From Ignavibacteriaceae bacterium (lineage in GTDB: Bacteria; Bacteroidota; Ignavibacteria; Ignavibacteriales; Ignavibacteriaceae), in NCBI GenBank assembly GCA_013360295.1, contig JABWCL010000026.1:1-64000 (forward strand): 64,000 bases of DNA, given 5' to 3'. Positions 1 through 1,208 of the stretch are shown here, in pieces (position 1 is the stretch's first letter; every line of letters begins with the position of its first letter). Below the pieces are notes generated by a model. The model made no database searches. It worked only from the letters and a program-made list of their open reading frames with translations, and was not told where the DNA came from. The translations under genes were made by a program, and so were the position numbers.

Positions 1-70
1 GGAACCAGGCGAAGCTAAGTCATAATGCTTTGAGGTTGTATTTGTTTTAATCGAACTATAGTAGTATTGG

Positions 71-86
71 TCCCGATGCATCGGGA
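71..86. repeat. 16-bp perfect palindrome TCCCGATGCATCGGGA
   Basis: This perfect inverted repeat joins the truncated right end of one CRISPR-type repeat to the truncated left end of the next, replacing the expected spacer. A related palindrome (TCCCGA, two bases, TCGGGA) occurs at 33985-33998, so it belongs to a dispersed family. Confidence 0.75.
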
Positions 87-98
87 TTAATCGAACTA

Positions 99-117
99 TC
101 CCAGTGAGCGGGACGGG
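99..117. repeat. 19-bp unit inserted in CRISPR repeat
   Basis: TCCCAGTGAGCGGGACGGG sits exactly between the two halves of the repeat, ACTA and TAGT, which form the 8-bp palindrome ACTATAGT when rejoined. No target duplication is seen. Confidence 0.75.
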
Positions 118-186
118 TAGTAGTATTGGAACTACTTAACATTTTATTTCCCTTTATGTTAAGTTATTTATGTCTTATTCGAACTA

Positions 187-224
187 TCCCACAGAGCGGG
201 ACAGGTCCCACAGAGCGGGACAGG
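187..224. repeat. Two tandem 19-bp units inserted in CRISPR repeat
   Basis: TCCCACAGAGCGGGACAGG occurs twice head to tail (187-205 and 206-224) at the same dyad-centre position as the unit at 99-117. Each can fold through TCCC and GGGA. Confidence 0.8.
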
Positions 225-239
225 TAGTAGTATTGGAAC

Positions 240-380
240 TTGCTACTCAAGTACGTTTTTGATGCACCAAAGGTGCGTGCTTCAGACTTCGTGTCAATTA
301 AAAAGAAATTAAGCAACGATGGGCGCTTGCCTGTCAATTTTCAACTACAATCGAAAGCTACATTAAATGATAAACGATGA
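240..380 (+). pseudogene. 3' fragment of an unrecognised gene, cut by a CRISPR repeat
   Basis: An open frame reads from the edge of the repeat at 239 to the TGA at 378-380. It encodes about 46 residues with ordinary protein composition (Leu-Leu-Lys-Tyr-Val-Phe-Asp-Ala-Pro at the start, Leu-Asn-Asp-Lys-Arg at the end). Upstream in the same frame there is only repeat sequence with a stop at 228. Its stop overlaps the start of the next ORF by 14 bases, as in a compact operon. The coding part therefore appears to begin at the repeat border: this looks like the tail of a larger gene whose 5' part is missing. The family is not recognised. Confidence 0.5.
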
Positions 381-1005
381 TTTATTAAAGTTCGGGGTTA
401 TTGAAGACCCCTCATTGAACATCCAAGCGGAAAGTAATTTCCAAAATTTCCAGCATTCTGGTGAGTATGTTGGAATTATTGGTAATCTGAAGCGCTACTA
501 TCAAGACGCTGAAGGAAAATTAAAGGGGAAGGATGGCGTACATTACACCGAATCAACTCCGGGAGTTAAACTCGGTTTTATGCAGCTCCAAATTTTCTTC
601 GTAAGACGTCCGGATGGAAGTCCACTCATTATGCAGAGTAATGGTGAATACATTGTAGTTCCGGGCACTGATTACGGCGAGATTGTTTACTCGCAGTACA
701 TTGATATTGCCCCCGAGAAACAGTTCGCCAACAGGAGCTTGTTCCTCGAGTTTGTTACTAAAGTTGGCAATGAAGAGGTCGCCGTAGTAACAGGCGATGA
801 GCGAGATTTCAAAGTGAACCTTGGTGTATTGCCCCACTTCTTAGGGATGCAGGTAAAGGTACTCTTCGAGAAGTCGGCAAAAGGCAATTCTTTAGTCAAG
901 AGAATCACCTTGATTGACAATACTTATGACCTAGCGAAATATATGGCAAGAAAAGTCCTCGTCGAATCCTTAGAAAAAGTTGCCGAGAATTACCTGAACA
1001 GTTGA
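367..1005 (+). CDS. Hypothetical protein, 212 residues, in the inter-repeat operon fragment
   Basis: The protein is soluble, acidic to neutral, with no signal peptide or membrane segment. Its start overlaps the preceding gene fragment, so the two were probably translated together. The family is not recognised; phage or plasmid origin is only inferred from the compact gene packing and the position between CRISPR-type repeats. The 3' end is suspect. An alternative frame (codons in register with 963) stays open to a TAA at 1083-1085 and encodes a plausible tail (PEQLIEARRAKNEK and onward). That stop lies one base before the next start codon. A -1 shift near the A-run at 973-977 would join them and give roughly 238 residues. 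Confidence 0.6.
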   Translation: MINDDLLKFGVIEDPSLNIQAESNFQNFQHSGEYVGIIGNLKRYYQDAEGKLKGKDGVHYTESTPGVKLGFMQLQIFFVRRPDGSPLIMQSNGEYIVVPGTDYGEIVYSQYIDIAPEKQFANRSLFLEFVTKVGNEEVAVVTGDERDFKVNLGVLPHFLGMQVKVLFEKSAKGNSLVKRITLIDNTYDLAKYMARKVLVESLEKVAENYLNS

Positions 1006-1086
1006 TTGAAGCACGGAGGGCTAAAAACGAGAAAGCACCGGCTGTCAATCCCGTTGATGCTGCAAACGCTTTAGGAGGAATATAAA

Positions 1087-1149
1087 TTGGCTAATCTCTC
1101 GAAGTTAAAGTTGCCTCGCTTCGAGTGGGATGGGACTTGGGGGTTTTAA
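1087..1149 (+). pseudogene. 5' fragment of an unrecognised gene, cut by a CRISPR repeat
   Basis: A strong ribosome-binding site (AGGAGG, 1073-1078) precedes a TTG start at 1087. The frame encodes about 20 residues (MANLSKLKLPRFEWDGTWGF) and stops at 1147-1149, inside the repeat that begins at 1143. This has the look of a real gene start truncated by the repeat border. It mirrors the truncated gene at 240-380. Confidence 0.5.
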
Positions 1150-1208
1150 TCGAACTATCCCTTGGGGGACGGTTCCCACAGAGCGGGACGGGGGGTAGTG
1201 TTGGAAAC
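1143..1208. CRISPR. Isolated CRISPR-type repeat with inserted units
   Basis: Left half GTTTTAATCGAACTA (1143-1157) and right half TAGTGTTGGAAAC (1196-1208) flank an insertion at 1158-1195. The insertion holds two TCCC..GGGAC units, one shorter (16 bp) and one longer (22 bp) than the 19-bp form. No further repeat follows within spacer distance, so this is a solitary copy about 0.9 kb from the others. Confidence 0.55.

Follow-up and report, generated by a model that had tools for sequence, protein, structure and literature searches.

In clustered regularly interspaced short palindromic repeat (CRISPR) arrays, the older repeats degenerate at the trailer end. The subject of the present analysis is the first 1208 bp (C42:1-1208) of a 64,000-bp stretch of DNA from an Ignavibacteriaceae bacterium, referred to as a whole as the window, in which CRISPR-type repeats are split at their dyad centre by short hairpin units. 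Both situations would concern old repeats; here, however, the repeat arms are nearly intact and a hairpin stands at the centre. Irregular CRISPR repeats have been described in Sulfolobales, in loci termed relatively intractable to transposition, where two repeats are 18 bp longer than their neighbours and where two repeats of S. solfataricus locus F have an 899-bp plasmid-like fragment between them (PMC4390879); single irregularities were thus already known. These cases are presented as rare, with shorter spacers following the longer repeats, and the section concerned contains no recurrent dyad-centre hairpin (PMC4390879).

Repetitive extragenic palindromic (REP) elements offer a precedent for a hairpin inside a repeat, since these short tagged palindromes are on record within larger palindromes in three genomes (PMC3733652). 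Their hosts are repeated palindromes unrelated to CRISPR, whereas the hosts here are CRISPR repeats, and the C42 units differ from the elements of that account in their short stems, their TCCC start and their low copy number. REP sequences themselves serve as insertion sequence targets (PMC1525189); the likeness lies in a palindrome being a specific insertion target and the difference in the inserts, which there are insertion sequences with transposases and here are units of 14-35 bp that carry no gene. The searches made of open-access literature listed no title or abstract on hairpin-split CRISPR repeats, and the trailer concentration and the recurrence in eight genera reported below are new to us. 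Small palindromes seem to land or grow repeatedly in CRISPR repeats, and as spacers order an array in time, the split repeats supply a datable record of how such palindromes arise or move, a question that also concerns REP-like elements. Split repeats are in addition natural long-loop variants useful for tests of Cas6 processing, and array ends may be truncated or overlooked by finders that assume repeats of constant length.

The favoured reading, to which a probability of roughly 0.55 was assigned, is that C42:1-1208 is the trailer end of an array of the I-B/III-A repeat family and that the dyad centre of the repeat is a hot spot for REP-like hairpin units. C42 is the contig of the window and belongs to the source genome (G000, 4.46 Mb); other G-numbers denote genomes of relatives, of which G026 (3.67 Mb) and G080 are single-contig assemblies, and f1 and f2 are two families of one order, f1 including G000. 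A hairpin unit at the symmetric centre of a repeat is called a dyad-centre or X-type insert, and a palindrome following ATTG or ATTGG a Y-type insert. The 30-bp repeat reads GTTTTAATCGAACTA^TAGTAGTATTGGAAC, with ^ marking the split point, and is present in C42:1-1208 as one intact copy (R1), three split copies (R2-R4) and the 5-bp end of a fifth (R0), arranged as follows.

1-5 (+): R0, terminal five bases GGAAC of a repeat truncated by the contig start
6-43 (+): spacer, 38 bp
44-70 (+): R1, uninterrupted CRISPR-type repeat without the final AAC
71-86 (+): 16-bp palindrome TCCCGATGCATCGGGA in the place of a spacer; Y-type insert after ATTGG
87-98 (+): R2, 5' arm
99-117 (+): R2, X insert, a single 19-bp unit
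118-132 (+): R2, 3' arm
133-171 (+): spacer, 39 bp, containing the inverted repeat ACTTAACAT/ATGTTAAGT
172-186 (+): R3, 5' arm, with 2 mismatches
187-224 (+): R3, X insert, two identical tandem 19-bp units (187-205 and 206-224)
225-239 (+): R3, 3' arm
240-1142 (+): 903-bp stretch separating R3 and R4, holding a 212-aa open reading frame (ORF)
1143-1157 (+): R4, 5' arm
1158-1195 (+): R4, X insert, two unequal units at 1158-1173 (16 bp) and 1174-1195 (22 bp)
1196-1208 (+): R4, variant 3' arm TAGTGTTGGAAAC

In all three split copies the unit or units are placed between ACTA and TAGT, at the identical base. The target-site duplication used as a criterion for miniature inverted-repeat transposable elements and insertion sequences was not found: R1 has ACTATAGT, R2 and R3 have ACTA-unit(s)-TAGT, and no target bases are repeated. 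The pattern TCCCN7GGGAC occurs five times in the window, at 99-221 and 1174-1189 only, where 0.37 occurrences would be expected, and at least five occurrences were obtained in none of 100 shuffles of the window. Throughout the source genome, the intact repeat (at most 3 mismatches), the 5' arm (at most 1) and the exact 3' arm are confined to C42:1-1208, and as window position 1 is the start of the contig, the array runs off the assembly. Direct reading bore out the preliminary description in its coordinates for repeats and units, its spacers of 38 and 39 bp and its insertion point, said to be the same to the base and free of target duplication. Beside these two spacers, whose lengths it had called normal for an array, the other two gaps are the 16-bp palindrome and the 903-bp stretch. 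A search of the window against Rfam gave no matches. Type IX secretion system (T9SS) sorting domains were also present, which suits Bacteroidota in the broad sense.

The intact-repeat pattern (at most 2 mismatches) matched 44 of 245 relatives, many with regular arrays of a period near 66 bp and some with single chance hits, and arrays were read in G026, G005, G040, G044, G046, G052, G417, G059, G023 and G048. The C42 repeat GTTTTAATCGAACTATAGTAGTATTGGAAC resembles the array repeats of G026, G044, G005 and G212, the last of which belongs to another family of the class and carries an ordinary array (repeat ATTTGAATCGAACCATAGTGGAATTGAGAC). Because the repeat family forms regular arrays in relatives, its sequence places the C42 repeat in a genuine family of CRISPR repeats, of I-B/III type. 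The preliminary description had proposed CRISPR identity and had named as refuting it relatives in which the sequence has no connection to cas genes and no regular spacing; the relatives did not refute it, since G026 has both the cas link and the regular spacing.

The array of G026 (family f1) had been chosen for reading on account of its irregular spacing in the pattern search of the 245 relatives. It is a type III-A array beside cas genes, the adjoining genes matching Cas1b, Cas2, Csm4, Csm5, a Csm6-type ring nuclease and a CARF protein. Its 30 full repeats comprise 17 with an intact centre and 13 (#4-6, 10, 15, 16, 20, 22, 23 and 27-30) split by CTTGTCCCGCCCTGGCGGGA or close variants, and a 31st, a cut copy at the trailer, is split too. 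Spacers following an unbroken 3' end are 35-38 bp long and distinct in 24 of 25 cases. Repeats #4, 14, 15, 28 and 29 carry a second palindrome after ATTG, always followed by one identical spacer, and #5 and #30 likewise have a spacer in common; these shared spacers indicate that portions of the array were duplicated.

Among the 1117 repeats of 33 scanned arrays, 28 were called split; 10 of these were alignment artefacts, caused by inserts holding a second 5' arm or, in L154, by a neighbouring repeat, and were removed. The 18 real split repeats were distributed over G026 (13), contig C91 of the source genome (2), G087 (2) and G075 (1), and reading of the array ends raised the C91 count to three, the added copy being terminal, and revealed six terminal split repeats in G080. 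In C91, 50 intact repeats are followed by three split ones, the last 3 of 53; the sole split repeat of G075 is #73 of 73; those of G087 are the last 2 of 19; and in G080, 22 intact repeats are followed by six split ones, the last 6 of 28. G026 is the exception among the five arrays, its split repeats being internal. With copies taken as independent, the probability of such placement was 4e-5 for C91, 0.014 for G075, 0.006 for G087 and 3e-6 for G080, values that serve as guides because duplication makes copies non-independent. The leader side is the cas1 side in C91, G026 and G075; in G080 and G087 it was assigned from the repeat direction together with a shared upstream CGACGA-like motif read by eye. 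In the source genome and its class relatives, 13 arrays of the repeat family have a visible trailer: five contain dyad-centre inserts (L110, L209, L278, L279 and L281; one of them, that of G026, selected for irregularity) and in two (L277 and L294) truncated repeats are separated by palindromes or inverted word repeats. No split repeat was present among the 126 repeats of the six scanned arrays of types I-C and I-E, two of which are whole in the fetched stretch.

C42:1-1208 is probably the trailer, i.e. the oldest, end of its array, since the variant R4 stands at the end and is followed by ordinary chromosomal genes, R4 probably being the last repeat ahead of them, and since the same mixture is found at the ends of C91, G080, G142 and G007. 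As a separate observation, the array ends of G007 (L294), G142 (L277) and G044 (L071) consist of tandem truncated or split repeats, the "spacers" of which are inverted runs of short words, or palindromes.

Dyad-centre inserts were found in nine genomes of eight genera, from the two families of one order. The carriers are G000 (C42 and C91), G026, G029, G040, G041 (a lone copy) and G044 in f1 and G075, G080 and G087 in f2. One split-repeat pattern search matched 5 of 391 genomes, three of them true (G000, G040 and G044), and another matched 10 of 393, again with three true (G026, G040 and G041); as both patterns were narrow and overlooked cases already known, G075 and G087 for example, the genome counts are lower bounds. 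A scan of 84,980 named species, which may leave out records near the genome of the window and used a pattern unfit for the G026 form, gave 40 matches, none judged to be a hairpin-split repeat; three of these (L143, L154 and L168) are within or next to CRISPR arrays, the repeats of which are intact except for the neighbouring repeats of L154. Viral contigs gave six matches, none judged to be a hairpin-split repeat, and two further viral patterns gave 0 and 18, the 18 being without CRISPR arms. Units range from 14 to 35 bp, the commonest form being a TCCC..GGGA stem with a CAAG or CAGG tail, and 11 of 18 compared inserts end in CAAG or CAGG once put in one orientation (two of the 18 were reversed by hand and a few ends chosen by eye; 16 of the 18 were folded). 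In G044, two different inserts stand in opposite orientation at the same site in one array.

According to the favoured reading, the leader side of the C42 array would lie beyond the contig end. Hairpin units would enter at the dyad centre in both orientations, as a rule precisely at the A^T junction and with no duplicated target, perhaps in the manner of a REP-like element that acts on the repeat hairpin when this is single-stranded or extruded, and could then duplicate in tandem, as in R3 and R4. Spread within an array might proceed by repeat copying, duplication or gene conversion. A second hot spot would be located close to the 3' end of the repeat, following ATTG; palindromes there would replace spacers and could break the handle of the CRISPR RNA (crRNA). 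The units would be tolerated as the terminal repeats are old and little needed and as a hairpin in the loop does not alter the 3'-terminal bases, which are to become the 5' handle. As the preliminary description had suggested, crRNA processing may be affected.

Mobility of the units was assessed from copies outside the arrays. The C42 unit has five relatives outside C42 in the source genome (one with 1 mismatch and four with 3) and none for the reversed control; the C91 insert has three relatives at no more than 2 mismatches in about 0.55 Mb of that genome (control 0), and the palindrome at 71-86 has two copies outside the array in about 0.55 Mb (control 0). The motif CYTGTCCC..GGGA gave 57 matches in the whole source genome, with overlapping matches counted twice and two C42 copies included, against 14 for the reversed control, and in samples 12 against 5 for G000, 4 against 0 for G026 and 0 against 0 for G080. 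By the usual marks of REP elements (GTAG and CGTC superfamilies), the C42 units compare as follows. They have short TCCC/GGGA stems and no CCA tail, where for the CGTC type a stem of 8-9 bp that opens with A/T pairs and a CCA-like tail are described (PMC3733652). On the minus strand they begin with CCTGTCCC or CCCGTCCC; were this the unpaired tag, its last bases would pair in the stem. In place of many dispersed copies, there are the five relatives in 4.46 Mb and none in the G026 and G080 samples. The family PF01797, which is wider than the REP-associated tyrosine transposases (RAYT), matched in 54 of 59 genomes, with three matches in the source genome, one of them located on C83.

Several results weigh against the favoured reading. 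No copy of the G026 insert was present in 397 kb of that genome outside the array, even at 5 substitutions, nor any of the G080 insert in 400 kb of its genome at up to 3. The looser motif CYTGTCC..GGA gave 31 matches against 31 for the control in G000, 7 against 5 in G026 and 6 against 11 in G080, and was thus not enriched in G000 or G080, and hairpins of the source genome lie inside other dyads in 52 of 389 cases, not significantly above the shuffled mean of 43. Exactness of the junction is not universal, as 5 of the 13 in G026 are exact (ACCA^) and 8 carry an extra base (ACCGA), while the G080 insert displaces about five bases at the repeat centre and is no clean insertion; one split form of G044 lacks the TA of TAGTGG. 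Six of the 13 visible-trailer arrays (L217, L220, L283, L284, L288 and L290) have neither type of insert. Finally, the split fold of R2 was no better than shuffles (z -0.10), and several inserts folded alone were likewise no better than shuffles.

With few or no copies outside the arrays and no general habit of hairpins lying in dyads, a serious rival, doubtful though it is, holds that the repeat loop expanded in situ, where new palindromes were made by slippage or by template switching at the hairpin and no mobile unit was involved. The preliminary description had offered such loop expansion beside a palindromic element that targets the repeat hairpin. Growth in place would account for inserts that stand at the symmetry centre, differ between genera and are sometimes tandem (R3), and the inexact junctions of G026 and G080 lower confidence in insertion and raise it in growth, as the lack of insert copies in the samples of these two genomes also favours it. 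It fits poorly with the recurrence of the TCCC..GGGA stem and CAAG/CAGG tail beside different repeats, in two families and in both orientations, and with the relatives that the C42 and C91 units have elsewhere in the source genome. A targeting element remains the best fit to two orientations and several hairpins at the same place in arrays with different repeats.

A more specific form of insertion, considered unlikely, would have a hairpin element act on the repeat made single-stranded when Cas1-Cas2 opens it during spacer acquisition, the loop receiving the unit, with intact and split repeats then alternating as in G026. It is improbable that split terminal repeats are functional array end caps, for instance transcription-stopping hairpins or protection of the last crRNA: although they are the very last repeats in C91, G075, G087 and G080 and are lower in predicted energy than intact repeats, the units in C42, C91, G075 and G087 are not directly followed by a T run, the split repeats of G026 are internal (13 of 30), and six comparable arrays are without any. 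Still less credible is an ancestral long form that was shortened by loss in repeats close to the leader, with the trailer repeats left as relics; the long repeats are indeed the older ones in four arrays, but short repeats occur in many relatives and in G212 of another family, and the long forms vary between genera in sequence and orientation. An assembly artefact at a repeat-rich contig end is highly unlikely, because the same structure is found within G026 and G080, both assembled as single contigs, and in the interior of contigs C91 and G087:C40, even though the arrays of C42, G029:C22 and G044:C24 stop where their contigs do and that of G040:C45 is less than 0.5 kb from a contig end.

In RNA folding of the G026 repeat, the predicted outer pairs did not change when the unit was present and the energy fell from -1.9 to -18.6 kcal/mol; the last three bases were unpaired in both the intact and the split form. 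For R3 a longer hairpin was predicted (-17.3 against -3.4) with the outer pairs shifted. In I-B and III systems, Cas6 cuts so that the crRNA handle consists of the final 8 bases of the repeat. These bases are spared by the dyad-centre inserts and interrupted by the G026 palindromes after ATTG. A spared handle, together with the reduced need for old repeats, can explain why inserts are tolerated. Tolerance does not account for the position of the inserts; this position argues for a target, namely the tip of a DNA hairpin.

No Cas1 was found on C42, and the five Cas1 matches of the source genome, at four loci, are on C33, C91, C29 and C21. As C42 ends on the leader side, neighbouring cas genes could have been lost from the contig. 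Three of the loci (C33, C91 and C21) bear arrays with other repeats, and the fourth, on C29, is of type III-A and reaches the contig end beside cas1 with no array assembled. We infer from locus type and contig ends that the C42 array pairs with the C29 locus. Cas1 identity to that of G026 is a point against this, being 40% for C29 and 42% for C91; the C91 protein is as near as that of C29, which leaves the pairing on locus type and contig ends.

The 903-bp stretch at 240-1142 contains the tail of one open frame, the 212-aa ORF (367-1005) and the beginning of another frame. It fits exactly between two repeats, with open frames cut on either side, like an oversized spacer, and much resembles the 899-bp insert of S. 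solfataricus locus F (PMC4390879). The ORF had no match in PHROGs or Pfam, none by tblastn among 50,697 phage or 72,556 plasmid records and none by peptide patterns against IMG/VR, and its unaided structure prediction was unusable (mean predicted local distance difference test score, pLDDT, 36.9). It appears to run on in another frame (..LIEARRAKNEKAPAVNPVDAANALGGI) at about 960-1077, which may reflect a frameshift or an error of sequencing near 966-1000. The array of G040 (L047, reverse strand) likewise adjoins a fragment with an open frame cut at a repeat.

Two other identities for the C42 units were judged by eye only and dropped: an integron cassette, as no attC core was recognised, and an intrinsic terminator, as the units on C42 have no following T run.

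Among minor observations, PF01797 Y1 transposase genes at L083, L084, L088 and L090 have short-palindrome arrays on either side, like REP/RAYT loci. Y1 transposases lie within about 1.6 kb of cas1 at G026:C1:736031-738794, G071:C22:221201-223274 and G062:C52:16289-17717, and the G026 transposase near cas1 is surrounded by GTCCC..GGGAC palindromes (L243). On contig C29 of the source genome (L109:1-205), word-like tandem repeats (TGATCATTGATCATTG.. and ..CCCTGTTCCCTG..) stand directly behind the III-A cas1 and extend to the contig end, occupying the place where cas2 and an array would be expected. Word-like repeats resembling these, CTGATCTCTGATCCCTGTTCCCTG, are present at 1949-2047 of the window.
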